From Bernardetiaceae bacterium (lineage in GTDB: Bacteria; Bacteroidota; Bacteroidia; Cytophagales; Thermoflexibacteraceae), in the NCBI GenBank assembly GCA_025056255.1, contig JANWVT010000007.1:62001-126000 (forward strand): DNA of 64,000 bases, in the 5' to 3' direction. The translations under genes were made by a program, and so were the position numbers. Under the pieces are notes generated by a model. It was given only the letters and a program-made list of their open reading frames with translations. It did not search any database and was not told the DNA's origin. This document shows, piece by piece, positions 5,674 through 53,900 of this stretch (position 1 is the first letter of the stretch; each line of letters opens with the position of its first letter).

Positions 5674-8409
5674 ATGCAAACGCTATTGTGGGCAATTTTA
5701 CCGTTGGCAGGGGCACTGATGGCTTGGCTGTTGCCGCTCAAATGGGGCAAAGCCGTTCCGGCAGTTGCCACGCTTGCCGCATTGGTCGGTTTTGGCTATA
5801 CCTACGCCATACAGGATTTTTCCCATGCCCTCAGTTGGCAGTGGGCGGCTGCACTTACCTTCCGCTGGGCAGCAGACGCTACGGCTGTTACTACCCTGCT
5901 GATGGTAAACTTCGTATCGCTTACCGTGCAGGTCTATTCATGGAGCTACATGCAGCACGAGCAACGCCAACGCGACTATTTCGCACTATTGGGGCTATTT
6001 ACCTTTGCCATGAACCTGCTAATTATCAGTGCCGATTTGCTTTCCCTGTTCTTTTGCTGGGAAATCGTCGGGTTTTGCAGTTGGGCACTGATTGGCTTTT
6101 GGCGCGAAAAAGCCCCTGCAGGCATCGCAGCCAACAAGGCTTTTCTCATCAACCGATTGGCAGATTTGGGCTTTCTGGCTGCCTTGGGCGGTATGTGGGC
6201 TGCTTATGGTTCATTTGACTTAGCGATACTGAGCCAACCTTCTGAAATGACCGTTTGGCATGGGCTGATTGGCGGCGGGCTATTGTTGGCAGCAATGGGC
6301 AAATCGGCACAGTTTCCGTTTTCGGTGTGGCTGCCCGATGCCATGCAAGGACCCACACCTGTTTCCGCACTGATGCACGCCGCTACGATGGTGGTGGCAG
6401 GTATTTTTCTACTGATTCGCGTTTTCCCGATTTTAGGTGTTGATATTCAAATGGCTGCGTTGTGGGTTGGCAGCTTTACCGCCTTGCTGGGGGCAGCGGC
6501 AGCCGCTACACAATACGACCTGAAACGCATTTTGGCTTATTCTACCATTTCGCAGTTGGGGCTGATGTTGGCAGCAGTCGGTGCGGGCAACCCCGATGCC
6601 GCATTGCTGCACCTGCTCACACATGGGTTCTACAAAGCTGCACTTTTTCTTTGTGCAGGAGTCATTATCCACACTGCACACACGCAAGACATCCGCCAAA
6701 TGGGCGGCTTGGCGCAGCAGCGGCTGCTGTTCATCATCTTCACTTTGGCAGGGGCAGGGCTGGCAGGCGTACCGCTGACAGCAGGCTTTTTGTCCAAAGA
6801 AACAGTTTTACATGCAAATCTGACAGGTCTTCAAGACCTGTCAGATTTGGGGCAATATGCAGGTTTATCCCGCTTGATTTGCTTCCTCATGTTACTCATC
6901 GCTTCGCTGGGGACGGCATTTTACACCGCCCGCATGTGGTTCTTGGTTTTCTATTCCCGCAAGCGAAATTTAGTTGATTATCAAGCCGCTACAACCTCAA
7001 CAGGCGAATATGCTGCACTAATTGCGCTCGCCGTTTTTATTCCGTTTATTGCTTTCTCACTTTCGCCGCTGCATTGGCTTGAAAGTCTGCTGACCTTCCG
7101 CACAGCCCTACCGCAAGAATCTGCGCCGCTGTGGTTGCTTATTGTTTCCCTTGCATTGCTGGCAGGCGGTGCGGCTTTTGCGTGGCGGATTTACTGCTGC
7201 CGCATCAATGCCTTGCAACAAGAGGCTGATTTGGCAGAGCTGCCCGCATGGCGCACGGCGTACAATTTTTTATATTTGGATACCATTTATTACCGACTCT
7301 GGCAGCATACAGAAACAGCTTTTGCCCGATTTTTGGCGTGGAGTCGTCGCACTGAGCCGCAGCAAACGCCAAAAGTGTGGATAGAAGGCAGCAAGTATCT
7401 GACATTCAGCGCTATTGGTCGGTGGTTGGAGCATCGCAGCCTGCCTGCGCTGGTCGCAGCAAGTCGGCGCGTGGCGGCTTGGGAGCAAACGCTGTTAGAC
7501 CGCCCGATAGACCTGTTGGCAAAAACGGCGGTTGTGGTCGGGCATGTGCAGGCATGGCTTGACCGCGTGGCAGTGGACGGTATCATTCGCGGCATTTATC
7601 AAACAATTGGCAGCATGGGCAAACGCATCCGAACCTTACAAAGCGGCAAAGTACAGAGCTACTACCTCATGGCACTGCTTTTCCTGATGTTGCTGCTGGC
7701 ACTGCTGCTCACGTCTTGCGAGCCGGTCAACGGCAAGCGGCAAGATACAACTGCACCGCAACGGGCAGAAGTTGCCCCGCTGCCCGACCTTGCTTCGGCA
7801 GTGAAGGAATTTACAGAAAACCGCAGCGTCTTACTGGCACAAGTCAGCAACTTGGCACAAGATACAGACAGTACCCTGCAAACGCTGCCCCCTGCCGACC
7901 CAAACAATGAGCCTTCGGCGGCAGACGATACGCCTGTTAACAATGCCCCTGCCAATAGCCCCGAAAGTTTCAAAAGCCCGTTGGAACAAAAAGTAGATGC
8001 GTGGGAAAGTGAATGGGAAGAAATTTTGATGCGCTACGAACAGATGCGGACATCCTTTCGCACCATGGCAAATGCACGCGATTACTATTTTGAGCAAATG
8101 AACCGCGAGACGGCGCAAATCTCCGACAGCCGCCTGCGCAAAGCCGAGTTCAAACGCAACAGTCAGGCGCTGGCAACTTTCAACCGCAGCTATCGGCAGT
8201 GGTATCGCGAGTTGGGCGAAATCCGACGACGGCTGTATCGCGGGCGCGACATCCGCCTGCTGATGCGCACCGCTGTCATCCGCGAACAGTTTGATGCCGA
8301 AGCATTGGGCAATGTGCGCAAATACATCCACGAAACGCGCAACCTGTTGCAGCAAACCGATTCGCTGCTGCGTGCCGGCAATGCAATTGCTACCGACAGA
8401 ATCAACTGA
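5674..8409 (+). CDS. nuoL: NADH-quinone oxidoreductase subunit L (NuoL) with a long C-terminal extension
   Basis: Residues 1 to about 680 form a complete NuoL-type antiporter subunit of complex I. It has many membrane helices, CWEIVGFCSW with the TM5 glutamate, GKSAQFPFSVWLPDAM, GPTPVSALMHAATMV, and the C-terminal amphipathic-helix region ending in LQSGKVQSYYL. NuoL is normally about 600-650 aa; here the last helix ends in LLALLLTSC (Cys682) and is followed by about 229 residues: a Pro/Ala/Asp-rich linker, then a charged, probably coiled-coil domain (about 770-905). No other nuo genes flank it. GC content looks clearly higher than in neighbouring genes. A hairpin repeat adds residues 381-392 in frame. 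The DabB-like CO2-uptake family is a less likely alternative because the full NuoL C-terminus is present. Confidence 0.85.
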   Translation: MQTLLWAILPLAGALMAWLLPLKWGKAVPAVATLAALVGFGYTYAIQDFSHALSWQWAAALTFRWAADATAVTTLLMVNFVSLTVQVYSWSYMQHEQRQRDYFALLGLFTFAMNLLIISADLLSLFFCWEIVGFCSWALIGFWREKAPAGIAANKAFLINRLADLGFLAALGGMWAAYGSFDLAILSQPSEMTVWHGLIGGGLLLAAMGKSAQFPFSVWLPDAMQGPTPVSALMHAATMVVAGIFLLIRVFPILGVDIQMAALWVGSFTALLGAAAAATQYDLKRILAYSTISQLGLMLAAVGAGNPDAALLHLLTHGFYKAALFLCAGVIIHTAHTQDIRQMGGLAQQRLLFIIFTLAGAGLAGVPLTAGFLSKETVLHANLTGLQDLSDLGQYAGLSRLICFLMLLIASLGTAFYTARMWFLVFYSRKRNLVDYQAATTSTGEYAALIALAVFIPFIAFSLSPLHWLESLLTFRTALPQESAPLWLLIVSLALLAGGAAFAWRIYCCRINALQQEADLAELPAWRTAYNFLYLDTIYYRLWQHTETAFARFLAWSRRTEPQQTPKVWIEGSKYLTFSAIGRWLEHRSLPALVAASRRVAAWEQTLLDRPIDLLAKTAVVVGHVQAWLDRVAVDGIIRGIYQTIGSMGKRIRTLQSGKVQSYYLMALLFLMLLLALLLTSCEPVNGKRQDTTAPQRAEVAPLPDLASAVKEFTENRSVLLAQVSNLAQDTDSTLQTLPPADPNNEPSAADDTPVNNAPANSPESFKSPLEQKVDAWESEWEEILMRYEQMRTSFRTMANARDYYFEQMNRETAQISDSRLRKAEFKRNSQALATFNRSYRQWYRELGEIRRRLYRGRDIRLLMRTAVIREQFDAEALGNVRKYIHETRNLLQQTDSLLRAGNAIATDRIN
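6815..6849. repeat. Perfect hairpin repeat inside nuoL
   Basis: The arms CAAATCTGACAGGTCTT (6815-6831) and AAGACCTGTCAGATTTG (6833-6849) are perfect reverse complements around a single C. The copy is read in frame as NLTGLQDLSDL between two membrane helices of NuoL. The core CTGACAGG...CCTGTCAG is shared with the hairpins at 2997 and 59030. Confidence 0.85.
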
Positions 8410-8509
8410 AATCTGCCCATATGCAGCAAAACTTTTGATTTTATGCCGCATAACGCTAACTTTACAAAGTAACCAACGTACTTGTAGGCTTCATACATTT
8501 TATTTTTAT

Positions 8510-11188
8510 ATGCAGCAATATCGCTCTCGGTTAGTTATTCTACTCACGGCTTTTTGGCTTCTGACCTCAAAGACATCTTTTGCTCAACAGGATTTCACTG
8601 TTACTGGCAAAGTATTAGATACACAAGGTAAACCCGTAGTTGGCGCAAAAGTCTCCATAGAAAATAGCGCCTTTACCGATACAAACGAGAATGGCTACTT
8701 CTCTATTACGCTTTCTAAACCTATTGAACAACAGCCAAAAGAGGTGCGAGTATTGCGCCGACACATGCGCATCAAAGATGTTAAGTATCTGGCTAACGCT
8801 CGTGACTTTAGGATTCAGATGCAAGATGCGCCCGGATTTTTTCAGGGGCAAGTACTTTCTGCCGAAGGTGAACCACAGCCAGCAGCAGATGTGGTAATCA
8901 AAGTAGGCGGGCAATCGGAAACCGTAGCTACCGATGCGAAAGGCTTCTTCTTTACTCGCCTACCAGAAGACGTTCCTTTGACCAAAGACATATCTTTTAC
9001 AGTGAATAATGTTAGGATTCCTCCCGACAAAATCAAAATTTTCCCCAATGCGGGCTTTGTTATATTGCGCACTGCTAAGCAACCGCCGGCAACCACAGCC
9101 AATAAGCCAGCATTGGAAAACAATAAGAAGAATGAGATAGTAAGCGTTACAGTGTATGACGAGAGCTATTTACCTATACCCAACCTTAAATTAAAAGTAG
9201 ATGGCATTACTTACACTACCGACAACGAGGGTAAATTTGTTATCAAGGCATCACAGGTAGATGTGAGCAAGTTCAGCATAGAAGGTTACGAGATAGCTAA
9301 GTTTGATTTTGATACAGAAGGAAACTACGTATTCATTGTTATTAAGTCAGAAACTGCTGGCAAGCCAATAATACCGATGCGCGAAGCCTTAGACTCCACT
9401 GTTATAAATTATAGAGACGATTTCTACAGCATTATTAATGAGTTGGAACTGCGCAAGCAAATTCTGTCGGAGAAAAGCAACCAGATCCGAAGTGAAATGG
9501 AGCGCGTAGCAGAAAAACTCAACAATCAGCCAGATATTACTCCTTCTCAACGAGAAAATTTGAAAAAGTATTTGAAAAACCTTGAAATTGCATTGATAGA
9601 AAACGATGTGGCATATGAAGATGCACAGCAGAAATCGCAAGAACTCATCGCCCGGCTAAAATCAACGATTCTTGAAAAAGACGACCAAATATCTGCTGTA
9701 GAAAGCCAAAAGCAGATTACTATTCAAATTCTTTATGTTGTAGGCTTCATTGCCTTTATTTTATTGTTAGCTATCATATTTGGCTATCAGGCATTGCGCA
9801 AAATCAACCAGCAAAAACAGGAAATAGAACGACAGCGCGACGAGATTACCCAAGCCTACAACAACATCAAAACCCTCAGCGCTATTGGACAAAAAATTAC
9901 TGCCACACTCGACTTCAAAGCTTTAATCAGCACCATTCACTCTAACGTTATTTCCTTGTTAGATGCTACTATATTTGGAGTAGGTGTATTTAACGAGGCA
10001 GAGCAAAAAATAGAGTTCATGGATTTTATGGCAAGTGGTAGGCAGCAATCCTATCATTTTGAATCCATGAATGGCGCCAATCACTTTTCAGTATGGTGTC
10101 TAAAAAATCGCAAAGAAGTGATCATCAATAACCTCGCTGTAGACTATGCCAAGTACTTGAACGTAGCCAGTTATCAAGTAACAGACGACATGCCCAAATC
10201 GCTGCTGTATTTGCCACTTATTCGGGAAAATAAAGCTATTGGCGTTATTACTGTACAAAGTTTAAAGCCCAATGCCTACAGTGAGATTGACCTAAAAGTA
10301 TTGAGTACACTAGCGTCTTATATCTCTATTGCCTTAGATAACTCTAACGCGTACGAAATTATTCGTCGAAAAAATAGAGATATAACAGATAGCATTCGCT
10401 ATGCACAAACCATTCAAGAAGCAATGTTGCCCGGAAAAGCACAAATGCAGGAAGTTTTTGGCGAGCATTTTGTCATTTTCCGCCCTAAAGACATTGTTTC
10501 GGGCGATTTCTACTGGTTAGACAGACTAAAAAGCGATACCGAAGATAACGTTCATGTAATACCAACCCTTTCCGATGTAGGTAATAAAGTATTTTTTGCT
10601 ACCATCGACTGCACTGGGCATGGAGTGCCGGGTGGCTTTATGACCCTCATTGCCAATCAGCTGCTCAATGAAATGGTCAGCCTGCGAAAAATTCACGACC
10701 CTGCCATGGTTATTGAGCTGATGGACCGCAAAATTCGCAATATCCTCAAACAGCAAGACCGAGTAAATGACGATGGCATGGATGCTTCCCTTGCCTTAAT
10801 GGAGCGAATGGCAGATGGCAAGATGCGCATTGTATATGCCGGCGCGCGGCGTCCTTTGTATTTCTTCGTTGCCAAAGAAAATAAACTCTACTCGTTGAAA
10901 GGCGACAGGGCTTCCATAGGAGGACCCCAGCGAAAAGATGCCCGTTACAATCGCTACGAAATAATACTTAACAAAGGCGACATGATTTACATGCTGACAG
11001 ATGGTTTTGCCGACCAAAATAACCCCGACAAACAAAAGTTTGGTACTAAAAACCTTTGCGACATGCTCGAACTGCATGCCACCAAACCAGCAGACCAACA
11101 AAAAAGTCTCATAGAAGCCAGTTTAGACGCACACATGAATGGCTCAGAACAACGCGACGATATTACAGTGATAGGTATCCGCATCTGA
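8510..11188 (+). CDS. Membrane-bound SpoIIE/PP2C-type Ser/Thr phosphatase with GAF and carboxypeptidase-regulatory-like domains
   Basis: The start is placed at the ATG at 8510 because a signal peptide (residues 1-25, ending SFAQ) begins there; the frame is open further upstream, into the nuoL end, without a sensible N-terminus. Order in 892 aa: three carboxypeptidase-regulatory-like (Ig-like) domains (about 28-285) outside the membrane; a helical coiled-coil segment (about 300-400); one membrane helix (about 404-427); a short coiled coil; a GAF domain (about 450-600); and a SpoIIE PP2C domain (about 630-892) with VSGDFYWL, DCTGHGVPGGF and DGMDA metal-site motifs. Such proteins dephosphorylate anti-sigma-antagonist or SiaC-type partners. 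It sits 100 bp after nuoL and 5 bp before an LD-carboxypeptidase. Confidence 0.88.
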   Translation: MQQYRSRLVILLTAFWLLTSKTSFAQQDFTVTGKVLDTQGKPVVGAKVSIENSAFTDTNENGYFSITLSKPIEQQPKEVRVLRRHMRIKDVKYLANARDFRIQMQDAPGFFQGQVLSAEGEPQPAADVVIKVGGQSETVATDAKGFFFTRLPEDVPLTKDISFTVNNVRIPPDKIKIFPNAGFVILRTAKQPPATTANKPALENNKKNEIVSVTVYDESYLPIPNLKLKVDGITYTTDNEGKFVIKASQVDVSKFSIEGYEIAKFDFDTEGNYVFIVIKSETAGKPIIPMREALDSTVINYRDDFYSIINELELRKQILSEKSNQIRSEMERVAEKLNNQPDITPSQRENLKKYLKNLEIALIENDVAYEDAQQKSQELIARLKSTILEKDDQISAVESQKQITIQILYVVGFIAFILLLAIIFGYQALRKINQQKQEIERQRDEITQAYNNIKTLSAIGQKITATLDFKALISTIHSNVISLLDATIFGVGVFNEAEQKIEFMDFMASGRQQSYHFESMNGANHFSVWCLKNRKEVIINNLAVDYAKYLNVASYQVTDDMPKSLLYLPLIRENKAIGVITVQSLKPNAYSEIDLKVLSTLASYISIALDNSNAYEIIRRKNRDITDSIRYAQTIQEAMLPGKAQMQEVFGEHFVIFRPKDIVSGDFYWLDRLKSDTEDNVHVIPTLSDVGNKVFFATIDCTGHGVPGGFMTLIANQLLNEMVSLRKIHDPAMVIELMDRKIRNILKQQDRVNDDGMDASLALMERMADGKMRIVYAGARRPLYFFVAKENKLYSLKGDRASIGGPQRKDARYNRYEIILNKGDMIYMLTDGFADQNNPDKQKFGTKNLCDMLELHATKPADQQKSLIEASLDAHMNGSEQRDDITVIGIRI

Positions 11189-11193
11189 CAGCC

Positions 11194-12595: not shown

Positions 12596-12626
12596 AATAA
12601 TGCGCTGTGCTAAACTTCTTAAAACT

Positions 12627-13235: not shown

Positions 13236-13257
13236 AATGTTGGCTTACAAAATACAG

Positions 13258-13293
13258 ATGCACTGCAGCAACATGCCAGTTGTTGCAGTGCAT
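13258..13293. terminator. Strong intrinsic terminator
   Basis: A 15-bp stem (13258-13272 with 13279-13293, one G-T pair, 6-nt loop) is followed by TTTTA. It lies between the fasciclin gene and the convergent hemN. Confidence 0.75.
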
Positions 13294-13368
13294 TTTATTG
13301 GATTGTAACTTTTGTGCTTAGGAAGAATTGACTAATCTGCCTGCCGCTTAGCCACTTAGCCTACAGCT

Positions 13369-14736: not shown

Positions 14737-14808
14737 TTTGTTTGTTAAGTAAATATTGCCGTTTAGTCTATACAGTTAACAACGCATGCATGCTCCGCTA
14801 CTCATTTG

Positions 14809-34513: not shown

Positions 34514-35697
34514 GCCATCACTACGACTACCTCATTGCTGGCGGCGGGCTGGCAGGTTTAACCCTTGCTTATGCTATTGCAAAAACCCCTGCATTACAGG
34601 ACAAAAAGGTGCTGATTATAGACCGCGAAGTCAAACATCGCAATGACCGCACGTGGAGTTTTTGGGCTGCCGAGCCGACTATGTTTGACCATATTGTTCA
34701 CCGTACGTGGAAAAAAATCAATTTTATTTCCGATACGCTCAACAGGCAATTTGAGCTGACGCGCTATCGCTATGCTACTATTCGCGGCATTGATTTTTAT
34801 CAGGAAGTAAATCAAGTATTGCAGCGGGCTGCCAACATTGCTTTTCTGTACGGCGAAATTACTGAAATAGGGCAGGCAGGCGAGCAAGCATATGCAACAG
34901 TCAACGGGCAGCGGGTTACGGGCAACTATCTGTTTGATTCGCTATTTAGGGCAGAACTGTTTAATCCTTATGATGCTGGCTACCACTACATCCGGCAGCA
35001 CTTTAAGGGCTATGTCATCCGAACGCCTCAGCCTTTTTTTGATGACAGTGCTATTACCATGTTTGACTTCCGCACCAAACAAAAAGACGGCGTTTATTTT
35101 TTCTACATATTGCCTTATGACAAAAATGTGGCGCTGGTAGAATACACCGGTTTCTCGCGCGATTTGCTTCCCGAAACAGAGTATGACCACGAACTGCAAA
35201 ACTACCTCCACAATCGGCTACAACTTGTTGATTATGAAGTAGAAGAGACCGAGTTTGCCGTTATCCCTATGACCGATTTTCGCTTTGAAAGTCGCAAAGG
35301 ACGCATCATACGCATAGGTGTACAGGGCGGTATGTCCAAACCTTCTACGGGCTATGCATTTATACGGATTCAGCGACAAGTAGAAAAAATCATCAAAAGT
35401 TTACAAACAAGCAGCACACCATTTTACAACGAAGCCTTTCGCCCTCAATTTAGAATTTACGATGCCATGCTATTGAACATTATGCACCGCGAGGGTTGGC
35501 AAATTGCCCATATTTTTTCAGCCATGTTCAGGAGAAATCCCATTGAGCGGATTTTGCGCTTTTTGGACGAGCAGACGCACTTAGGAGAGGATTTGCTGAT
35601 TATGGCATCTGTTCCGCCACTACCTTTTTTGGAGTCTATCTACAACTTGATTTTCAGGCGAAAGCCCATTAAGCAGATTAAAAAGTATAGAAGTTGA
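34510..35697 (+). CDS. crtY: Lycopene beta-cyclase (CrtY family)
   Basis: The 395-aa protein has the N-terminal dinucleotide-binding fold YLIAGGGLAGLTLAYAI, the cyclase motif NDRTWSFW, and the later VQGGMSKPSTGYAFIRIQ typical of CrtY-type cyclases. It makes the beta-rings of beta-carotene and derived xanthophylls at the membrane. No other carotenoid gene is in the window. It overlaps the AGCS stop by 4 bp and overlaps the convergent siaC-like gene by 20 bp. Confidence 0.92.
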   Translation: MSHHYDYLIAGGGLAGLTLAYAIAKTPALQDKKVLIIDREVKHRNDRTWSFWAAEPTMFDHIVHRTWKKINFISDTLNRQFELTRYRYATIRGIDFYQEVNQVLQRAANIAFLYGEITEIGQAGEQAYATVNGQRVTGNYLFDSLFRAELFNPYDAGYHYIRQHFKGYVIRTPQPFFDDSAITMFDFRTKQKDGVYFFYILPYDKNVALVEYTGFSRDLLPETEYDHELQNYLHNRLQLVDYEVEETEFAVIPMTDFRFESRKGRIIRIGVQGGMSKPSTGYAFIRIQRQVEKIIKSLQTSSTPFYNEAFRPQFRIYDAMLLNIMHREGWQIAHIFSAMFRRNPIERILRFLDEQTHLGEDLLIMASVPPLPFLESIYNLIFRRKPIKQIKKYRS

Positions 35698-36055
35698 AAG
35701 GTAGATTGACATCTTCAGCAAACTCTTGTCCGCTTTCCAGCATGTCGAAGTCGTTGTTTTGATAGTACCAATTGATGGTTACTTTACCTTTTTTGCTGCG
35801 TTGGTAGTCTTCCAACATATCGAATATTTCTAAGAAGCGGCGGGAGCTACTGGTATTGAAATAAATCATTTTGAAGTTGAAGACAATTTCCCTTCCAGGG
35901 GTTGCCAAATAATCGCGTAGCCACTTAATAATAGGTTGAAAAAATTCTACAGTATATTCATGGTAAGATTCTCCGGCAATTTCAAGCACGCCCGACTGTG
36001 CATCGAAGTTTACACTGGGAATGTAGTTTGAGCCGGCAATCGAAAAATTCTCCAT
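35678..36055 (-). CDS. SiaC-like regulatory phosphoprotein (DUF1987)
   Basis: The 125-aa protein contains YIPSVNFDAQSGVLEIAGESY, the family opening (a STAS-like fold), and FNTSSSRRFLEIFDMLEDY. Thr68 falls exactly at the residue number phosphorylated in Pseudomonas SiaC, within an NTSSS motif, so it is probably the phospho-acceptor. In SiaABCD the phosphorylation state decides partner binding. It lies 4 bp after the siaB-like gene, in one operon; its last 20 bp overlap crtY tail to tail. Confidence 0.85.
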   Translation of the reverse strand: MENFSIAGSNYIPSVNFDAQSGVLEIAGESYHEYTVEFFQPIIKWLRDYLATPGREIVFNFKMIYFNTSSSRRFLEIFDMLEDYQRSKKGKVTINWYYQNNDFDMLESGQEFAEDVNLPFNFYTF

Positions 36056-36059
36056 TTAT

Positions 36060-36617
36060 CTACAAATTGTTATCTTGAATGAGTACTGATAAAATGAAAA
36101 AACTATGTTTTTCATCCACAGGTATAAAGTCGTACTGTAGAGGGTTCTTAGCTTTTCTAAGCACCCCTACCAAACCTGTACTGTCTTGATCTTCTGGCGT
36201 ACGCAGCTGCTGACGGAAATATCCGCGCAATTGTTCATTATTGAGTTGATTGATATAATCTATTTTTTGGCGAAGTTGTGCTACCTCATCATTTTCTACC
36301 ATGTTGCCAGAGTTCACCGTAAAAGCACTTCTGTCAGCGTTAGTGGCTATCACCACAATACCCTTGCCTACCATTTTCTTGTCCGATTCGGAATAGTCTT
36401 TTTCGGCAGAGTACAAATTGATGTTTTGCACCAGTTCCACCATTACGCCGAAAATTCGCTTGCCTGCTAAGTCGCTGTCTGCCTGCTCCTTAACATTTCT
36501 ACCCATCATGGTTAGTACATCGGTGGTCATCATACCTTGAAAAGCCAGTAGGATATGATGTTCCTGTATTAACTTATAGAAATCGTAGGTAGTGCTACTA
36601 TGTATATTGCTGTTCAT
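36060..36617 (-). CDS. SiaB-family protein kinase (DUF6272)
   Basis: The 185-aa protein (ATG 36617; a TTG three codons upstream is also in frame) has FAFQGM-type strands and the GHKL-like N-box ELVQNINLYS (Glu61, Asn65) followed by VVIATNADRSAFTVNSGN. SiaB is the kinase that phosphorylates SiaC on Thr, and the adjacent gene encodes that substrate. A perfect -7 box TATATTTG (36631 to 36624, minus strand) is so close to the ATG that the mRNA may be leaderless or nearly so. Confidence 0.82.
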   Translation of the reverse strand: MNSNIHSSTTYDFYKLIQEHHILLAFQGMMTTDVLTMMGRNVKEQADSDLAGKRIFGVMVELVQNINLYSAEKDYSESDKKMVGKGIVVIATNADRSAFTVNSGNMVENDEVAQLRQKIDYINQLNNEQLRGYFRQQLRTPEDQDSTGLVGVLRKAKNPLQYDFIPVDEKHSFFILSVLIQDNNL

Positions 36618-36741
36618 TGTAAGCAAATATAAGGGTTTCGGGCAAAATCAAAAACGTAGAATGCAAGTGGTTTTTAAAAAATGTAACAGCACTATGCCAG
36701 TAGAACAGTTAAGTGCAGCTCCGTCTCCTACGTGCCTCTGC

Positions 36742-38058
36742 CTATTGCCAGCTTGTATGGGTGTAAATATTAGCTTTTAGGCGGTTGAGCATAGTATACA
36801 GTCCAAAGTAGGTACGGTTTAGATACAGGGCGTCTTTGGAGCCACGCGGTTTTTTAGATTTTCTCAACTCCTCCATTTTGGAAAGTCGCTCACCAAATTG
36901 ATAAAGTTGCATGAAGTATTCTTCGTTTCCGAAGTCAAATTTTTCTTCGCGAAAAGGCTTCACTGTCAAGTAAATCATTTCACTGAAAGTTTCCATGAAC
37001 AATTTTTTGAGAGCAGGGCTATCGTCTTCATAAATAAAGCCCAAATCGTAAAAAGTTTGTTCAAGGGCTGCTGCATCGTCGAAGATACGCGGGTTAATAA
37101 CACGGAAATGGGTTTTGTAGTAGTCGGGTGGAATAATTTTGACACATCCAAAATCGATGATACCCAGTGTGCCATCGGGGCGCATCAGGAAGTTTCCCGG
37201 ATGAGGGTCGGCATGTACCATCAGCATTTGGTGCATTTGGTAGTCGTAGAAGTTCCAAAGTGCCTGCCCAATTTGGTTGCGAATTTCCTGAGGCGGATTG
37301 TCTTTTAAGAATTCGTCTAAATGCTTACCCGTTAGCCAATCCATTGTCAGGATGCGCTTAGTAGTATATTCAGGATAGTAATGAGGGAAGACTAGGTGAG
37401 GAATATGCGCACAAGCCTTTGCAATGTGTGCGGCATGCTTCATTTCTAATTCATAGTCAGTTTCAGCGATGAGCATATTTTGCACTTCGCTCATGTAAAG
37501 GTCTAAGTCGCGCTCATTGAGCCCCAAAATTTGCACAGCAAAAGGACGAACCATTTTCAGGTCGGAGGCAATGCTATCAGCAACTCCCGGATATTGTACT
37601 TTTACGGCAAAAGTCTTGTTGCCTTTAGTTGCTTTGTGTACTTGCCCAATAGAAGCAGCATTAACAGCATCTTTGGTGAAAGTGTCGAACAATTCAGTAG
37701 GTGCCTTGCCGAAGAACTGCTGAAAAGTTTTCACAACTAATGGGTAAGAGAGGGGGGGCGCAGAGTATTGTGCCATCATGAATTTTTCTTGGTAGGCAGT
37801 AGGGAGCATGTTTTTGTCCATGCTCATCATTTGCGCTACTTTCAGGGCGCTGCCTTTCAGTTCGCTGAGGGTTTCATAGATATCTTCGGCGTTGTCGCGA
37901 TGCAGGTCTTCACGACTAACGCTGCTGTCTACCAAGCGTTTGGCATAGTGCTTAATGTAGTTACCGCCAAGTTTGACGCCGGTTTTAACAAACTTGGCAG
38001 CTCTCTCAGCTTTGGTAGTAGGGATAGTATCTTGGGCTTTGGGTTTTTCTTCTGCCAT
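36742..38058 (-). CDS. AarF/ABC1/UbiB-family atypical kinase
   Basis: The 438-aa protein contains the UbiB-type motifs: LKGSALKVAQMMSMD (where KxGQ reads Lys73-Val-Ala-Gln76), the AASIGQVHKA loop, VKVQYPG with the ATP-binding lysine, HADPHPGNFLM and IIDFGC. The family acts in isoprenoid-quinone or lipid metabolism as ATPase/kinase-like proteins. There is no evident membrane helix at the C-terminus, unlike proteobacterial UbiB. It lies 43 bp downstream of a TetR-type regulator on the same strand, a pairing I recall as common in Bacteroidota. Confidence 0.88.
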   Translation of the reverse strand: MAEEKPKAQDTIPTTKAERAAKFVKTGVKLGGNYIKHYAKRLVDSSVSREDLHRDNAEDIYETLSELKGSALKVAQMMSMDKNMLPTAYQEKFMMAQYSAPPLSYPLVVKTFQQFFGKAPTELFDTFTKDAVNAASIGQVHKATKGNKTFAVKVQYPGVADSIASDLKMVRPFAVQILGLNERDLDLYMSEVQNMLIAETDYELEMKHAAHIAKACAHIPHLVFPHYYPEYTTKRILTMDWLTGKHLDEFLKDNPPQEIRNQIGQALWNFYDYQMHQMLMVHADPHPGNFLMRPDGTLGIIDFGCVKIIPPDYYKTHFRVINPRIFDDAAALEQTFYDLGFIYEDDSPALKKLFMETFSEMIYLTVKPFREEKFDFGNEEYFMQLYQFGERLSKMEELRKSKKPRGSKDALYLNRTYFGLYTMLNRLKANIYTHTSWQ

Positions 38059-38101: not shown

Positions 38102-38731
38102 CTAACGGGCAAAAACAAACTTAATAAAATCAACGGTAGTATCTGCTATGTTTTTACCTAACAAGTCGAAAGCCAAGTTAACGGCTTTCTCAATAGCGGC
38201 ATCGGTTTTTTCAAAGCCTCGGCTATTGTCTTGTATCCAAAAGTTGATTATAAATTCCATTTGCCACCAGAGCAATTGGGCGTAGCGGTCTGTAAGGAAG
38301 GGTCTGTCCACTATTTCGCCTGTGTAGATGGCATCGTTTATTATTTTTTTTACAAAATCATCAAAGTTTTTTTTCAAGTCAGCAAGCAAATCGGGCTTAC
38401 CACACAGTCGGCGCTCAACAGTGTTTCGTTGTGCATAGGTTTTTTGGGCGAAGCTGCGAATGTTTTTAAGTGTTTCTACATAGCCATAGTACATGGCGAG
38501 CATCTTTTCGCGAGCATTGTATTGGTCATATACGTTGTCGTTTTGCAATTTTGCAACCGTATCGTTGAAGGCGTCGCCCCAAATAGCTGCTTCTAGTGCA
38601 TCGAAGGAGGCATAGTGTTCGTAAAAAGTCTTCTCCTCCATGTTGATGCTTTGCATAAATGCAAACACCGATGCTGGACGCTTGCCATGATTCAGTAAAT
38701 AGCGGATGTATTCTTTTTTAATTTGCTCCAT
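38102..38731 (-). CDS. TetR-family transcriptional regulator
   Basis: The 209-aa protein has an N-terminal HTH (about 5-48; NMEEKTFYEHYASFDALEAAI is the recognition helix region) and an all-helical C-terminal ligand domain rich in aromatic residues (LLWWQMEFIINFWIQD). The ligand is unknown. It precedes the AarF-like gene (43 bp) and probably regulates that operon. Confidence 0.85.
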   Translation of the reverse strand: MEQIKKEYIRYLLNHGKRPASVFAFMQSINMEEKTFYEHYASFDALEAAIWGDAFNDTVAKLQNDNVYDQYNAREKMLAMYYGYVETLKNIRSFAQKTYAQRNTVERRLCGKPDLLADLKKNFDDFVKKIINDAIYTGEIVDRPFLTDRYAQLLWWQMEFIINFWIQDNSRGFEKTDAAIEKAVNLAFDLLGKNIADTTVDFIKFVFAR

Positions 38732-41901: not shown

Positions 41902-41976
41902 TTATAAAAAATTAGCATATCACACTTTATTCTTACATAAGTGATAGCTACCCGTGGAAATAATAAAGTTTATATT

Positions 41977-44900
41977 ATGATAAGTTCGTTTACTCGCACG
42001 TTAGGCTGGTTAGTCGTGTTGCTCGGTAGCTGGCACCGAATATGCGCACAAACAGCCGATTTTCGTGTAGGCACAGCAGGAGAACCTCTGACAGGGGGAT
42101 GCGGCATAGCTACCTACAAGTTTTATGACCAAAGTTCGGGGTTGCCATCCGACCTGACTACTATCCGCTATAATTGGGATTTTGGCACGGGCAGCCCAGT
42201 GGTTGGAATTCCCAACGACCCGAGCATCACAGAGCCAGAACGCGCCTACGGTACTCCCGGGCGATACATTGTGCGGTTGCGCATCACCAATGCTGCCGGT
42301 ACTGTAACCATTAGCGAACGGACACGTGAGGTAATCGTATATGACCGAGCTACTCCTAACTTTACAGTGCCTCCCGGAATTGGTTGTACGCCTTATACAG
42401 TAACATTTAGCGACATAACTGTTGCTGGAACAGTTTCAACAGGAGGCTTAGTGGGCGATATTGTACGTTGGACTTGGAATTTTGGAGATGGTACCACTAT
42501 TACAGGTACAGACCCCTCATTCAGAACCCCCACACATACGTATAACTTCCCCGGCGACTACCAGGTAACGCTGACTGTCGAGACTTTTGCCGGTGGCAGA
42601 GAAACTTGTCAGGCTTCTATCATCCGCCCTAATGCAGTCCGGGTGCGCTGGTCGCCGCAGGCTGCTTTTCGTTTGCAAAACGGTCCGGCTTGTTCACCGC
42701 CGTTTCTGGCGCGCTTTGAAAATCTCTCTACGGTGCGTACCAGCCCGCCGCCGCCCGGTAATATCACGAGCTATTTGTGGGAATTTTTTGATGCCAGTGG
42801 CAATCTGGCAGGCACGAGTACCGATGTAAACCCTACTTTTACTTATCCTACTTTTGGTGTTTATCGTGTACGCTTGACTGCCACTACTGCCGACGGTTGC
42901 TCTTCGGTGCGCGACGTTCCCGATGCCATTGTCATTAGAAACAACGTTGCCGATTTTGATATTCCACCGATTTACTGCGCCAACAGTTCGCAACAGTTTT
43001 TTGACCGCTCCTCAGCAGGTGCGGTTGGTTGGGCGTGGAATTTTGGCGATGGCAGCACGTCCACGGCGCAAAATCCGAATAAAACTTATGCTGCACCGGG
43101 CACTTATCCCGTAACGCTGACTACTACTTTTATAGACGGTTGCTCGGTGAGCGTAACTAAAAACGTAACAATCCGTCCATTACCAGATGCTAATTTTACA
43201 GTTAGCCCGCCTGATAATCTTTGCAATACAGGTCCTCGCCAGTTAATTCCAGCATTAAACGACCCTACTAATTATACGTATGAATGGCGCGTTACCGACC
43301 CTGCTTTTGCTTTTGGCGAAGCCATTTATACAACAGCTACTCCCACGCATAACTTTACAGCTTTTAGGACTTATCCGATTCGTCTGACGATTACTGACCG
43401 GACAACGGGCTGCTCCAACACGTTAACGCGCAATTTGGTATTGGCAGAAGCCGTGCCGCGTTTGGAGTTTATTGGGGCACAGCCTACTACTACTTGTGCG
43501 CCTGTAACATTCAATTTTACGGCTCGGAATAGCACCTCAGTAGAAGGTATCATCCGTTATGATTTTGATTTTGGCGACGGATCGCCTGTGGTAAGCATTG
43601 CGCCGCCATTCACCCCAACCGGTTTTCCGGATGTTTCACACACTTACACTACGCCGGGAGTTTACACGCCGCGCGTAACCATTACAACTGCTAGTGGCTG
43701 TACACGTACAGCTAATTTTAATCAGCAAATCAAAGTCGGAACGCGTCCCCCGAATACCATTACGCTTACAGCGAACCGCAACGGCTGCGCGACTATCGGC
43801 GGAGTAGGCATTACCTTTACTCCCAGTATTCCGCCCGGTGTTTGTGCCGACAGCGTAGTGTATGATTTTGGGGACGGCTCTGCGCCTCGCGGTGTGGGCA
43901 ATGTAGGACCAGTTACTCACGAGTTTCGCACCATTGGAACAATTACAGTTAATGCGATTTTTTATTGCAATGGCTGCCCTACTGTTTCTCCCATAACAGC
44001 TACAGTCAATGTAGATGGACCAATCGCTTTATTTAATGTGGTAGGCGGAGGGGTTGCCTGTGCTGCTAACAGTACTTTTAGCTTCTTGAATACCAGCGTG
44101 GATGCAGCGGCTCCTGTTACTACCACTTATGAGTGGGACTTTGGTGATGGTACGGCTACGCAAATTATTCCAAGGGGAAGCCCTGTATCGCATACCTATG
44201 CCAGTCCGGGTGTTTACACTGTAACACTGCGCGCTATCGGTTCTAATGGTTGCGTCAATGTGCGCACGGCTACGGTCAATATATCTGTTTCTACTCCTTC
44301 GTTTACGGTAACACCTAATCCTTCAGGACCTATTTGCAGCAATATCCCTATTCGCTTTACAAGCACCTCTACTACCAGTGGCACCATCACAAGCTACCGC
44401 TGGGACTTTGGCGATGGCACCGTTACTACCATTAATGGTCCGGCAGGTGCTTCGGTACTCCATACTTATGTGCCTCGTGCAACCCCGTATCAGGCAACAT
44501 TAACCATTACCGAGTCTAATGGTTGTGCCGAGTCGGTAAGTGCACCCGTTAATATTACGATTCAAGGACCAAGAGCTGATTTCACCTATCCTTCGGTAGT
44601 GTGCGTAGGGCAACCGGTTAGCTTTAATGATGCCTCAACAGTATTTCCTAATAGCAATGCCATTACCTCATGGAATTGGTTTTTCCAAGACGGCATTTCT
44701 AATCCGTTCCAGAACCAAGCGGTGCAAAATCCCACTTATACGTTCCTAAGCCCCGGCACGTGGAATGTAACGCTGACTGTTGCTGATAATAATGGTATCG
44801 GTCCTTGTACTGCTACTATTACTCGCACCATTACAGTTTTACCGCGCCCTGTGGGCGGGTTTAATGTTTCTGCTACGACCTTCTGCGCCGGTAGCAATAT

Positions 44901-47900
44901 GACCATTACCAGCAACGCAATAGACGTTCCCGGTGGCACAGGGCTGACTTATGCATGGAATTTTGGCACGGCACCGTCAAATTACACTGCCAATTTGAGC
45001 AACCCTGCCAACCCTGTGATTCGTTATCACACTGCGGGTAGCTACACTATAACCCAGACTGTTACGGCAGGCAATACCTGTTCGGTAACATTTAGCCGTG
45101 TAGTTAACGTGATTGCGCCTGATGCGACTATTTCTGCACAGGCATCTACCGGACCGCCAGTATTTGCCCCCACACAATTGGTAATAAGTTGCCCTCCAGC
45201 AGCAGTACGCTTCCGAGCTACTCCATTCCCCGATGCAGATATTGAAGAGTACTACTGGGAATTTGGCGATGGCAACGTATCCTTCAGCCAAAACCCTGAA
45301 AATACATATATCAATCCGGGCGTATATACCGTTCGCTTGACGATGCGCAGCCGTGCAGGTTGTACCGTTGTTCGCGAGCTTATAAACTTTGTTCGAGTAG
45401 ACGGACCTCGTGGGCAATTCATTTTTAATCCTACCGACATTTGCGTAGGCTCTTCTGTTACCTTTACCGCAACCGGGTTGCAAAATGTTGCTTTTGTGCA
45501 ATGGGATTTTGGCGATGGTTCGCCTACTACTTCTCCGGTAGCGTTTGATGCAGCGGCTTATGCGGCAGCAGGTAACCAGTTACAAATTACACATGTTTAC
45601 ACGCGACCGGGTACTTTCCAACCTGTATTAATTTTACAGGACAACAATACTCCTCCCTGCCGTGTTTTCATCCGTCCGGATGGCGGTGCTCGGGTGCGTG
45701 TTAGTGGCAAACCTACCGCCGCTTTCAGTTGGCCTAATAACAGCGGCAATATCTGCGAAAACAGCAGTTTTGTTGTTACTGATGAAAGCACGTCAGACCC
45801 TGATACGCCGCCGACACTTTCTCCACAAATTACGCGCTGGCAGTGGGATGTGTTTGACGTGAATCCTACCAGCAATCCTACGGCTACGCCTGTTCGTACG
45901 CAAGTCATCACTTCTGCGCCCGGCAATTACACATTTGCCAATAATCTGCCTGCGGGCAATTATTGGATTCGCTTGCGTGTACGCACAGCATTTGGTTGCG
46001 AAGATGAAGAGGTGAAGCAGATAACACTGGTAGCGCCTGTTATTTATGCAGATTTTGAAAATGATGCTTACATATGCGTAGGCAGCCCTACCAGCTTCAA
46101 TGCGGGTAATTCTAATGACCCTGCTACGCGCTGTTTCAGTCCGAGCGGAGTGCCACAGCCATTGCCTTGTAATGCGCCTAACGTCTTGCGACCGCCATTC
46201 TCTTGGAGTTTCAGCGGTGGAGCACCACTGCCGCTATTATATGAATGGGAATTTTCGGTAGGGGCTACTATTTTGGGAACAGCAACAGGGCAGCGTCCTA
46301 CGTTCACTTTCCCTGTCAATGCATCCAATCCCAGTCAGCCGTATGATGTAACCGTTCGCCTGACGGTGCGCGATGCCTTGCTGTGTGCTTCGGGCGTAAC
46401 CAAAACGGCCATTATTACTGTTAATCCGCTGCCTCGTGCGGCTTTGAATCCTTCCGATGTAACCATTTGCCATAACGGAGGGGTAAACAGTGCTTCATTT
46501 ACTACACAGGCAGACCCGGCTATTCCGGGTACGGTTCAATACCGCTGGCAAGTAGATGCCGGAGCAGGTTTTGGCGACCTAACCGATGGAGGAGTTTATA
46601 GTGGCGTTACCACTCCAACATTGACTTTGACCAACGTTCCAGAGTTTATGAACGGTTGGCGCTTCCGCGCGCGCATTCAAAATACAAATAATATTCAATG
46701 CGAGGCATTTAGCGCACCTGCTACATTGACTGTTATTCCAACACCTACTACCGCTACTGTTGTATCGCCAATTAATATTTGCGACGCTACTACTGTTACG
46801 CTAACGGGTAATGCGCCTGCGGCAGGGCGCGGCACGGGTCGTTGGGTGCAGTTGAGTGGTCCTACTACCATTAACTTTGGGGCACAAATCAGCAATCCGA
46901 CGGCTACTATTCCTGTTAGCAACGGAGTTTATACCTTCCGCTGGGAAATCACCACTTCTGCCAATGGCGTAAACTGCGTGTCGCAGTCGCCTGTGCTTAC
47001 AGTGAACAGCGGTCGCTCTGCTAATGCCGGACCTGACCAGTCGGTGTGCGAGTTTATTAGTGGCACTACTAACCGCATAGAGGTAACACTGGCAGCCAAT
47101 AATCCTGCCTTAGGTGGTGGCGGTACAGGTACATGGACGGTAGTAAATCGTCCTTCGGGGTCGCCTGTGCCAGTATTTACCCCTAATGCCAATGCGCATA
47201 ATGCAACCATCTCCGACTTGCGCCCTGGCACTTATTTGCTCCGTTGGAGCATTACAGGTGCACCGGGTTGTGGCAATACCCAAGATGACATGATTATCAC
47301 GGTCAATCCGCTGCCGATTATTGCCAACCCGACCGATTTGACGGCTTGCGCCAACAGTACCGTGAATTTATCTGCACTGGTAGACCCAAGTCTGAATATT
47401 CAGTGGGAGATTGCCACCCCCTCAGACCCGACCAACTTTAACCCCGTGCTGAACGGAACGTTCTTTGGCGCAACTTTCAGCGGTGCAACTACAAACACCC
47501 TGACAATTGCCAACATACCTGCTGCACTAAATGGCTCACGTTTCCGCATTCGTGGCACCAATACTACCACAGGCTGTTTTAACTATTCAACAGCCGCTAC
47601 GCTCACCGTAGCCGATGAACAGAACAACGAAGTTACCGATGCCAGCATTTGCGCCAATGCAACATCGGTCAATATCATTGTGCGCAATGCACGGGCAAAT
47701 CATACTTATCGCTTATTCCGCGGCAGCACTACCTTTGCTACGCAGACTCCTGCCGTAAATGGCGATATTACTTTCACTTTGTCAGGAGCTGATGTGCCAA
47801 CTTCTTCCACTGCATATAGCGTAGAAGTAACTGCACCTGTAACAGGAGCCGGCAGTTGCGTAGTAGTATTACCAGACCAAGCGGTCATTACAGTTACCCC

Positions 47901-50900
47901 TGTCAATCAGGCAGTTGCTGATGCAGACTTTGATGCTTGCGATGTTACAACTGTAACGCTAACAGGCAACATTCCAATTATTACGGGTGCAGGTTCGTGG
48001 TCGCAGGTGAGTGGACCGTCTGTACCACCTGCTAACCGCAGCATTAGCGGACCGGATAATAACGTGCTGACGCTGACCAATTTACAAGCAGGGCGTTATG
48101 CGTTCCGTTGGCGTATTACCAACAGTACTTGTCCCGATTCGGAAGACTTAGTAACCTTTACCATTACCAATCGCGCCAATGCAGGCACTGACCAGCAATT
48201 TTGTTTACCAACTACAAGCACTACGCTGACGGGTAATTTACCTTATACGGGAACGGCAACTTGGTCGTTTGTGTCAGGTCCAAGCGGTGTTACGCCTGTG
48301 CTGACCGTTGTTCCGCTGACTCCTGCCGAAACAGCGGCGGGCGTATCAAGTCCGTACAGCACCACTGTTACAGGTATGACCGCACCGGGCGTGTACCGCT
48401 TCCGCTATGCCATCAGCGGCGGGGCATGTCCGCCAAGCGAAGACTTTGTGGACGTATTTATTGCAGCTCCTGCCAATATTATTACGACAGATACAAGGCT
48501 GTGCAACGTCAGCAGTTTTGTAATGACTGCCGATGTGCCTGTGGTAGGAGCGGGCAACTGGTCGCTGGTATTTACAGACGGTCCTGTGCCTACTTTGGCA
48601 ACCTCAGGTACAGCCGGCACAACATTAACCGCCAATGGTTTGGGCAGAGGTCGCTATGTGTTCCGCTGGACAGTAACAGGTTCGCCCTGCGGTACAGGCG
48701 GTTCTACTTTTGATGAAATTGAAATTTTCAACGATGCTCCTGCCAATGCAGGTGCAGATATAGCCGTTTGCGGCACGGTTAATCCGACTTCGGTACAACT
48801 AAATGCCGTGCCTGCTGTGAGTGGTACGCTGGGAACTTGGACACAGGTAGGCGGTCCTGCCCTGCCTCCGGGTAGCTTTGTCAATGCCAATGCTGCTAAT
48901 ACGTTTGTGAATAACTTGGTGCCGGGCAACGTGTACGACTTCCGTTGGACAATCAGCGGCGGCTCTGCCTGTCCGCAAACAGTGGATGATGTGCGCGTAA
49001 CCGTATCGCAACCGCCTTCGGCTGCGGTAGCAGGTACAAATCAAGTACTTTGTGCTGCCAACACCGCTGTTATGAATGCTACTCCGCCTGTATTTGGCAC
49101 CGGTTTGTGGACATTGGTAAGCGCACCAATGGGGGCTACGCCTGTGATTGCTAATCCTTCGGCACATAATACAACTATCAGCAACTTGAATGTAATCGGT
49201 ACTTACACCTTCCGCTGGACGGTCAGCAACCCGGGCTGCCCAAGTACAAGTGCCGATGTGAACATTGTGGTGCAACTGCCCGTAGCTGCTAATGCGGGTG
49301 CAGATGCCAACATTTGTGCAGCTACCTATACAATGGCTGCCAATGCTGTTCCCGCAGGGGCAACAGGGCAATGGACATTTGTTTCCGGACCCGTTACGCC
49401 CGTTATCACTACGCCAAGCTCGCCGACTACGAACATTACGGGTATCAATGCTCCGGGAGAATATGTATTCCGTTGGAGTTTGAGCAACGGCGCTTGCGTT
49501 TCCGAAAGTACCGTAACCATCCGCCGTGCGATAGTAGATGCAGGTCCGGACGTGAATACCTGCGGCACAGGCAATACTGTTACGCTGAATGCACAGCCTC
49601 CTGTGGTAGGTACAGGCAGATGGACATTTGTTTCAGGTCCGAACGCGGTAACATTCTCTAACGACTTGGACAGAAACGCCACCGTCAGCGGCTTGACGCA
49701 GCCGGGCATTTACACCATCCGCTGGACAGTAACAGGTACGCCTTGCGGCACTAATTTCGATGATCTGCTTATCCGTGTAGTTACTCCTGCTAATGCAGGG
49801 GCAGACATTAGTGTTTGCGGTACGACTAACCCCGTAACGTTGGGTGCTACGGCTGTGGTAGGTCCGGGTACGGGTACATGGACAGTAGTTTCCGGTCCGA
49901 ATACACCAACTTTTTCAAGCGCCACGGCTGCTAATGCGCAATTCGGTACGGGCGGCACGTTGCAGGTAGGTACATATGTGTTGCGCTGGCGCGTAACTGG
50001 TTCTGCTTGCCCCGACAGCGAAGACTTCGTAACTGTAACCGTTTCGCCTTCTACGATTTCTGCCGGCTCTAACCAGACGCTTTGTTTGGCATCTGCCGCT
50101 ACAACTACCACTGCCAACCTTTCAGGTACTCCGCCTGTAACAGGCACGGGTACATGGTCGCAGGTAGGCGGTCCTACGTTGCCTGCGGGCAGCATCGCCA
50201 ACCCCAACAGCCCGAACACAAGCGTGAGCAATTTGGGCGCGGGCATTTACGTATTCCAATGGGCGGTAACAGGCGCAACCTGCCCCGGCAGTGCGCCTAC
50301 CGTAACCATTACGGTAGCTGAACCGCCGCGCATCATTACGCCGCCTGTTTCGCCGATTTGTGCAACGGGAACGACAGCAACCGTAACCGTGAGCGGCAAC
50401 GTGCCTGTGATAGGAACAGGTACATGGTCGCGGGTATCAGGTCCGGGGGCTGCACCGACGATTTCCGCTTCGGCAAGCGGCGGGGTGAGTACGGCAACAT
50501 TCAGCGGCTTGGAAGTAGGTACGCACGTATTGCAATGGGCATTCAGCGGAACAGCACCTTGTACCTTCACACCTGCACAAGTTACAGTAACGGTACAGCC
50601 GCAACCGACACTTGCAACGGTTACGCCTGCTACACAAAGTGTATGCGCCGACCCTGCATCGGGCTTTGGCAGTGCAACCCTGACAGGCAGCGTACCTGCG
50701 GCGGGCAATACAGGCGCATGGTCGCACAGCGGACCAGGCACACCGACGCTCTCGCCGAGCGGCGCAGGTGGTAGTACCCTCAACATCAGCAATTTGGCAG
50801 TAGGTACGCATACCTTCACATGGACAATTACCAACAGTTGCGGTGTATCAACTGCATCGGCAACCGTAACGGTGAATCCGACCAACCCGCTTGCTGCCAT

Positions 50901-53900
50901 TACTGCGCCGCCTGCCACTACGATTTGCGGCACGCCTACCGGTACGATTAACCTGACGGCAAATGCACCTGTAACGGGTACAGGTACATGGACACGTATT
51001 TCGGGTCCGGGCGCGGCACCTGCTTTTGCACCTAACGCCAACAGTGCAAGCGTTGCCATCAGTGGACTTGCAGTAGGCACACATCGCTTCCAGTGGGCAC
51101 TAACCAACCCTGCTTGCCCTGCTAATAACAGCGCGGCAACTATTGATATTACCGTTATTCCATCAGACCCCGTAGCGGCGATTGTTTCTGCACCTACTTC
51201 CGATGTCTGCACCACAGGCACAACAGGTTTGGGCAGTGTGAATCTGGCAGGCAACGTGCCAACTTCCGGAACAGGCACATGGTCGCGGGTTTCAGGACCG
51301 GGAACGGCAACGCTGGCAACAAGCGGCGCGGCAGGCGAAAACGCTACTTTCTCTAACTTGCAACCGGGCTTGCATACGTTCCAATGGACAATCAGCAATG
51401 CCGTTTGCGGTACTACTACATCGGCACAAGTTACCATCCGCATTGTAGAACGCGATGCAATAGCAGCTATTGACCCTGCACCTGCCAACGTCTGCGCCGA
51501 CCCTGCTACCAATCGCGGAACAGTAACGCTCAACGGCAACGTTCCGACAAGTGGCACGGGCACTTGGACACGCCAAAGCGGTCCGGGCACGTTCACGCTG
51601 GTAACGGCAGGCACGGGCGGCAGACAAGCCACTTTCAGCGACTTGCAAGTAGGTACGCATGTGTTCCGCTGGACAATCAATAATCCGGCTTGCGGTACTA
51701 CTTTCGCCGAAGTAAGCGTTACCGTGCAGCAGCCAACGCCTGTGGCAACCATTACGGGCAATTTGAATGTTTGTGCAAGCGACCCGACTGGAACTTTGGG
51801 CTCAACCATTCTGGCAGGCAACAACAGCTATGTTGGCACCGGTACATGGACGCGTATTGGCGGCACAGGCGATGCAACGGCATTAGCCATCACTATTGGC
51901 GGCACAAACAACAACGTGGCAACTATTACGGGCATGGGCGTCGGTACGCACGTGTTCCAGTGGGAAATGACCAACGGCGTATGTCCGCCGACTTCTGCTC
52001 AGGTAACAGTAACCGTGAATCGCAACAATCCACAGGCAGATATTGTAGGCGCAAATCCCACAGTTTGCACCGACCCCGTAACCAATTTGGCGCAAATCAC
52101 CCTGACGGCTAATGAACCTGTTGTAGGTACGGGCACATGGACGCGCACAGGCGGCACTGCCGACGGTACAGGTGTTGCCATTGCAGCTTCTACCACAGGC
52201 ACAGGCAACGCCATTGCCAACATTACGGGCATGCAGCCGGGTACGCATATTTTCCGCTATACCCTCACCAGCGGTTGCGGCACAACCTTTGACGAAATCA
52301 CTGTAACGGTGAATCCTTCTAATCCGCCCGCAGCAATTGCTACTGCACCCGGTACGGTATGTACTGACCCTACAACAGGCAGAGCTACTATTACATTGAC
52401 GGGCAATGAGCCGCGCACCGGCACCGGCACATGGACACGTGTAGGTGGCTCCGGCGACCCGACAGGGCATGCCATCAATACATCAGGTACTTTCGGCAGA
52501 GTGGCAACTATTACAGGTTTGCTACCCGGACAACACATCTTCCAGTGGCAACTGACCAACAGTTGTGGCACAAGCTCTACCACCTTTACGGTAAATGTAG
52601 AGCAGTCTAATCCATTGGCTGCCATTATTTCAACTGTCAATAGCGTATGTACCGACCCTGCCACGCAGCGGGCAAACATAACCCTGCAAGGCAACACGCC
52701 TATTACGCCGGGTTCAGGCACGTGGTCATACACGGGCGGAACGGGCAGCACGGCGGATATGGTCATCAGCACGCCTAATAACCCGACCGCTAATATTTCA
52801 GGCTTGCAAGTCGGTACGTATCAGTTTACATGGACGCTGACTAACAGTTGCGGCACCAGCAGTGCTTCTGTAACTGTAACGGTGAATCCTTCCAACCCTG
52901 TGGCAAATGCGGGCGCAGATGCTACCCGCTGCGATGCCCCGGGCGGTGCTTCCATTACCTTGACCGGTAATGCACCGATTTCAGGTACAGGCACATGGAC
53001 GCGCACAGGCGGCACAGGTTCACCGACAGGCGTAATCATCACACCGACAAGTACAACCTCTGCCAACGTAACAGGCATGGGCGTCGGTACGCATGAGTTC
53101 ACATGGACGCTGACCAATGGTTGCGGCACTACTTCTGACGTAATGATTGTAACCGTATTGCCAACCAATCCACCTGCCAATGCCGGACCGAATCAGGCAG
53201 TTTGTACCGATTTGGCAACAGGCAGAGCTTCCGCCACGCTAACGGGTAATGCGCCGATTGTAGGTACTGGCACGTGGGCACGGGTAGGCGGCACGGGCAA
53301 CCCTGCGGGTATTGTGCTGAATCAAGTGGGCAACGTGTTGAATGTCAGCAATATGCTACCCGGTACGCATATTTTTGAGTGGACATTGACAAGCCCAAGT
53401 TGCGGTAGCAGCAGCAGCCTCGTTACTGTGTTTGTCAATGAGTCCAATCCTTTGGCAGCCATTACAACCACACCGCCATCGCCCGATGTATGTGCGGATG
53501 AGATAACCAATTTGGGTGCTGTAACGCTCACCGGCAATGCACCTAACAGCGGCAGCGGTACATGGACGCGCATCGGTGGCACAGGTAGCACTTCTTCTAT
53601 GAGCCTCAACATAGTAGGCACAACGCTGAATGCAACAGGCTTGGGCGTAGGTACACATACCTTTGAATGGCGTTTCACAAGTCCTTGTGGCAGTTCGGCA
53701 GCCACTTACACGGTAAATGTGATTCGTCAGAATCCACCGGCAACGGCAACCGCAGCCGCAACGCAAGTATGCGCCGATGCGGCAACCTTGCAAGGAACGG
53801 TAAATCTGATAGGCAATGCACCGCTTTCGGGCATTGGCACATGGACGCGCACTGCCGGCACTGGCACTTTCACCATCACCAACCCGAATAGTCCGAATAC

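Follow-up and report, generated by a model that had tools for sequence, protein, structure and literature searches.

Two genes of the SiaB and SiaC families lie next to each other in the window (the whole 64-kb stretch of DNA that was analysed), both on the minus strand and separated by a 4 bp gap. The features discussed here are as follows:

35678..36055, minus strand: SiaC-family switch protein, 125 aa, with Thr68 in YFNTSSS (PF09345, E 8.3e-45)
36060..36626, minus strand: SiaB-family kinase-like protein, 188 aa, TTG start at 36626 (PF19788, DUF6272, E 1.1e-34)
36742..38058, minus strand: ABC1/AarF-type atypical kinase, upstream neighbour of SiaB (PF03109, E 3.1e-50)
38102..38731, minus strand: TetR-type regulator, upstream of the ABC1 gene (PF17931, E 4.6e-34)
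8291..11188, plus strand: SpoIIE phosphatase with GAF and SpoIIE domains, the latter at about 10583-11185 (PF07228, E 7.7e-23)

An alternative ATG start of the window SiaB lies at 36617, the end position used in the initial annotation. Both proteins belong to their families: SiaC scored 151.8 bits against the Pfam SiaC model PF09345 (cut-off 24.5), and SiaB scored 119.5 bits against PF19788 (cut-off 26.6) and 145 bits against the NCBIfam SiaB_fam_kinase model NF038262 (cut-off 85). Neither protein reached the NCBIfam cut-off of its Pseudomonas equivalog, SiaC scoring 105 bits against NF038265 (cut-off 150). In the alignment to P. aeruginosa SiaC (PDB 6kko_C, E 3.9e-19), Thr68 of the window protein falls on T68. 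The initial annotation had proposed an adjacent SiaB-SiaC pair with its substrate site at Thr68 in NTSSS, and both points are borne out, the first by the Pfam matches and spacing and the second by this alignment.

The SiaABCD system of P. aeruginosa consists of the PP2C phosphatase SiaA, the kinase SiaB, the switch protein SiaC and the diguanylate cyclase SiaD (PMC7278518, PMC8457831, PMC7647112). The window pair resembles it in its adjacent SiaB and SiaC and in Thr68 with the surrounding residues, but differs in having no PP2C phosphatase gene beside it; nor did we find near it the stalk gene expected of a SiaD, in which a stalk and a GGDEF domain are encoded with siaBC. No diguanylate cyclase was found within the 64-kb window, as the initial annotation had already noted, and the whole-genome search that it had called for returned no GGDEF match in the 3.39 Mb genome (100% estimated completeness), which thus lacks SiaD altogether. 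The three other genomes of the genus also gave no GGDEF match; as a positive control, the search found matches in 8 of 14 reference genomes. Across the order, SiaC is present in 44 of 59 genomes (our own included), and GGDEF in a single genome, which has no SiaC. Despite the homology of SiaB and SiaC to their Pseudomonas counterparts, these distributions make it scarcely credible that the window pair controls c-di-GMP as in Pseudomonas, and they support the earlier suggestion of a different output.

A further difference from SiaABCD is that the genome has four pairs, not one. Every one of its four SiaC and four SiaB genes is paired, so the pairing in the window is not due to chance. At pair C30, a SpoIIE protein (GAF and PAS, with Cache and HAMP matches below their cut-offs) is encoded directly upstream of SiaB, followed by SiaC and then by a 1033-aa protein with a TerB-like region (under cut-off), an ABC ATPase and ABC-2 membrane parts; here, as in SiaABCD, a PP2C phosphatase is encoded together with siaBC. 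At pair C10, the gene after SiaB and SiaC encodes a 165-aa coiled-coil protein that has two predicted membrane segments; it carries a stalk of the SiaC-binding type and so provides another likeness to SiaABCD. Among the neighbours of pair C74 and of the window pair, we recognised no effector. The genes around the window pair speak neither for nor against the particular outputs that the initial annotation had named, namely motility, surface proteins or a sigma/anti-sigma system.

The genome encodes 23 SpoIIE proteins. The one at 8.5 kb in the window had been put forward initially as a candidate for the SiaA role, a proposal that we abandon: it is one among 23, lies 25 kb from the pair with nothing singling it out, and a SpoIIE gene directly upstream of SiaBC exists at C30. 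The stalk profile described below matches this window SpoIIE protein weakly, in the coiled coil only and with the motif absent. Across the 59 genomes of the order, SpoIIE and SiaC counts are strongly correlated (Spearman 0.916; partial correlation for genome size 0.899; 0.911 over 22 family means), with SpoIIE counts entered as at least 45 in 13 of the 59. This correlation fits with SpoIIE proteins serving SiaC in the order, and some of the 23 phosphatases would be candidates for resetting SiaC in this genome. In the sigma-factor switches SpoIIAB/SpoIIAA and RsbW/RsbV, a GHKL-type kinase, a STAS-like substrate and a PP2C phosphatase act together, and the SiaBC system is built alike. Unlike in those switches, no sigma factor or STAS gene was noted beside the window pair, and STAS counts do not track SiaC counts (Spearman 0.21, p 0.11). 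The STAS partner switches HsbA-HsbD and BgrV-BgrR act on diguanylate cyclases (PMC8457831); they share with SiaBC a phosphorylatable STAS-like protein that modulates an effector, but SiaC forms a separate family and this genome has no diguanylate cyclase. As a separate observation, genome G056 of the same order (9.3 Mb) contains 42 SiaC genes and, on a first-look count, 170 candidate SpoIIE genes.

Each of the four genus genomes has TetR, ABC1, SiaB and SiaC in this order on one strand, with 84 to 115 bp separating SiaB from the gene ahead of it. Such conservation makes the ABC1 and TetR neighbours candidates for a functional tie to SiaBC, with gene order as the basis, and could be taken to mean that the output is a local one, either the ABC1-type kinase or the TetR regulator. 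We consider this very improbable, since the order is absent from the other members of the window SiaC clade that were fetched, whose neighbours vary. The clade comprises 43 of the 168 SiaC rows in a quickly built tree (SH-aLRT 96). This tree uses an alignment of 124 columns and is weakly supported at 70 of its 165 internal branches; duplicates and sequences shorter than 95 aa had been removed beforehand, and our simple ORF caller yielded no SiaC row for locus L264 and, in one survey, for L081. No stalk or ABC gene occurs within three genes in any of the 43 rows; among all 168 rows, an ABC protein is nearby in 54 and a stalk in 25. The recurrent neighbours of this orphan clade are, as judged by eye, presumably mostly housekeeping genes, and no effector was recognised among them.

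The stalk was first defined from five proteins encoded near SiaBC, which share a helical region with the pattern Y..LL, then (I/V/M)(S/G)D..Q.KL. We built a profile (A3) from these five, leaving SiaD out; its sources are the C10 protein of this genome and one record each from Cloacimonadota, Acidobacteriota, Aminicenantes and Ignavibacteriales. Against 177,635 PDB sequences, A3 found SiaD (7e6g_A) first, at E 2.3e-4, with the next match at E 0.015. The alignment covers both SiaC-binding motifs of SiaD, S50-Q54 and S82-Q86; in the SiaC-SiaD crystal structure, Thr68 inserts between the stalk helices at S82/Q86, and the motif occurs twice (PMC8457831). The C10 protein has the motif VSDRLQ (of the ISDRYQ type) in a coiled-coil stalk, and its homology to SiaD is seen through A3, to which it contributes one of the five sequences. 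Searched alone against the PDB with phmmer, it gave coiled-coil and unrelated matches and no SiaD, and it had no match in NCBIfam. The NCBIfam SiaD model matched three of six scanned stalk proteins in the stalk region (E 0.003-0.005), far below the whole-protein cut-off; the scan of L169 covers the best 25 of 36 families. The C10 protein is the sole stalk of the genome (E 7.9e-32; next match 1.86), and, unlike in SiaD, the stalk sits on a membrane protein. A search of the genome for a DNA pattern encoding the ISDR.Q motif was uninformative, with 30 matches versus 27 in the reversed control, and a coiled-coil context in open frames only at C10.

In the order as a whole, the stalk was detected in 31 of 59 genomes (profile A4, E 0.01; 32 with A3), a few of the matches being weak. 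It is present in 30 of the 44 genomes with SiaC versus 1 of the 15 without, the latter a weak match (Fisher 4e-5). At E 0.01 no stalk was found in the other 14 of the 44 SiaC-containing genomes, so there must be partners of another kind or stalks that escaped detection. The stalk also occurs in several protein contexts. It is joined to GGDEF in L095 and in L075 (a SiaC-stalk-GGDEF fusion), to a histidine kinase with receiver and Hpt domains in L095, to a class III cyclase in L071, and in relatives to kinases of 332-348 aa (L169, L172 and L177); other carriers are an 85-aa protein (L099) and a protein with a CxxC-bearing tail (L060). In the relative L179, SiaC, stalk and two transmembrane segments form a single chain. 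Physical binding of SiaC by the C10 stalk is predicted, with the fusions L075 and L179 as indirect support.

Setting aside two noise loci (L151, L180), the three kinases and the L179 fusion from the 31 loci L150-L180 leaves 25 membrane-type stalk proteins, of which 18 have two predicted membrane segments and seven have one. In 18 of the 25, SiaC is encoded on the same strand no more than two genes away; for SiaB or SiaC the number is 19. G004, G005, G006, G007 and G010 have the stalk gene on one contig and the C10-type SiaBC pair on another, a precedent for a pair acting on an effector encoded elsewhere, bearing in mind that draft assemblies may split linked genes. A SiaB-SiaC fusion in one chain was seen in L167, L170 and L268, with a membrane-type stalk protein encoded after it in L167 and L170.

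As the C10 protein is the genome's only stalk, and each of the four genus genomes has four SiaC genes and one stalk, several SiaBC pairs could converge on this one membrane effector (165 aa, two transmembrane segments), the window SiaC among them. The four SiaC paralogues also keep Y65, N67, T68 and S69 in common, except for A69 in C30. The contact positions are where this convergence becomes unlikely. Of 21 SiaC-stalk pairs, the 16 from Bacteroidota have hydrophobic residues both at SiaC 114 and at stalk position 77, which faces it, and position 79/74 combines K/R with E, D or Q; the remaining five pairs, from other phyla, have D/N at SiaC 114 with K/R at stalk 77. At the 114/77 position, P. 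aeruginosa SiaC-SiaD has D with K (PMC8457831). The five unlinked stalk/SiaBC pairs obey the Bacteroidota rule. This table excludes L071, where SiaC is three genes from the stalk, and enters pairs with identical contact residues and stalk once; the covariation separates two large clades and may therefore represent one or two events. The window SiaC has E29, Y31, D79, E110 and D114 at its contacts, whereas the C10 SiaC has R29, I31, R79, D110 and L114. D79 and D114 follow the Pseudomonas pattern, to which the C10 stalk would present E74 and L77. Because D79 and D114 are unsuited to these residues, a separate partner is the better guess for the window SiaC, although, with the two patterns following two clades, the comparison is suggestive only.

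The window SiaB departs from its family at the G2 box, which is shortened by four residues to DSTGLVG. The aligned segment reads DQDST----GLVGV, while most other rows have GGAGLG, PGANLG or GGSIG, and the SiaB of PDB 6kko has an intact box (CASGAGLGLLDI). An intact glycine-rich G2 box for ATP, present in SiaABCD, is thus missing here, and the same four-residue loss is found in all four genus genomes and in no other aligned SiaB row. The N-box residues Glu64 and Asn68 are retained. The window SiaB may therefore have lost or weakened ATP binding, or the altered box may nonetheless permit it. It is conceivable that this SiaB is kinase-dead, and that the pair either is a decayed remnant or works by sequestration alone, without phosphorylation. 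Besides the G2 loss, the lower identity of SiaB (64-77%, versus 92-96% for SiaC) to the three other genus genomes is in keeping with this. We regard it as distinctly unlikely, given the retained N-box residues and the intact SiaB and SiaC reading frames in four species. The dN/dS of the window SiaC is 0.01-0.04 (in the four of six genus pairs with computable dS), and the single measurable value for SiaB is 0.09. Purifying selection acts on the window SiaC, and constraint this strong would not be expected of a remnant. We conclude that the pair is kept for use, as SiaC is strongly constrained, and that phosphorylation of Thr68 by the window SiaB is doubtful and cannot be assumed, as the G2 box is shortened. 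The initial annotation's reading of SiaB as the kinase of SiaC thus stands as to family and N-box, and falters at the ATP-binding G2 box.

Taken together, we think it fairly probable that the window pair forms a partner-switch node and works in trans, on an effector unrelated to c-di-GMP; the trans action is argued partly from absence, as no effector of the pair was found. SpoIIE sensors would dephosphorylate SiaC, and one or more SiaB proteins would phosphorylate or hold it, both steps being carried over from Pseudomonas (PMC7278518). Free, unphosphorylated SiaC would clamp, and so stabilise, a coiled-coil effector encoded elsewhere. For the window pair, this effector is most probably encoded at an unlinked site and is not the single stalk protein of the genome; the window SiaB may chiefly antagonise SiaC by binding it, one of the three remaining SiaB proteins supplying the phosphorylation.

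In this order, the SiaD-type stalk has parted from the cyclase: it sits on a small membrane protein that has one or two predicted transmembrane segments (a single copy here, beside pair C10) and, in relatives, on histidine kinases, while a further SiaABC set shares its operon with a TerB-ABC exporter-like protein. More broadly, we lean towards a model in which SiaC activates stalk proteins in general, with c-di-GMP as one output. In Cytophagales, largely without GGDEF proteins, the SiaC-bound stalk would drive a membrane-anchored effector without a recognised enzyme domain, as well as histidine kinases. Many SpoIIE sensors would converge on few SiaC nodes, and the window pair would be one of these, with another effector and a SiaB weakened as a kinase. 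DUF1987 (SiaC) proteins have been suggested to modulate adjacent proteins (PMC8457831). In the papers that we found, SiaC has so far been studied only as a c-di-GMP regulator, and in literature searches that mostly leave out subscription papers, we found none, PMC9239204 included, that deals with SiaBC systems of Bacteroidota or with stalks other than SiaD that bind SiaC. If the stalk is a portable module, the many SiaC proteins of GGDEF-less Bacteroidota gain testable partners and large SpoIIE expansions gain a likely substrate, and the motif together with the covarying contact positions would allow SiaC-stalk docking pairs to be predicted.

Several other loci were observed in passing. On the plus strand of the window, 41941-59010 encodes a 5689-aa protein with PKD, cadherin and Ig-like repeats whose C-terminus bears a type IX secretion signal of the CHU_C type; after it come PorP/SprF (59100-60032) and an OmpA-type protein (59989-62070). 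SiaC without SiaB was found in L046, L237 and L254 behind four ribosomal-protein-like genes, which we take to be L2, S19, L22 and S3. Several Bacteroidales loci among L065-L074 and L080 have a second, diverged SiaC; the one in L070 has Ser as the switch residue, in NSASS, and lies near what is presumably guaA. The SpoIIE-SiaB-SiaC-ABC core was seen in 14 fetched loci (with one intervening gene in L261), including L033, where the operon at 4375-14995 encodes a CheB-type methylesterase, a GAF protein, SpoIIE, SiaB, SiaC, a TerB-ABC protein and two small exported-looking proteins.
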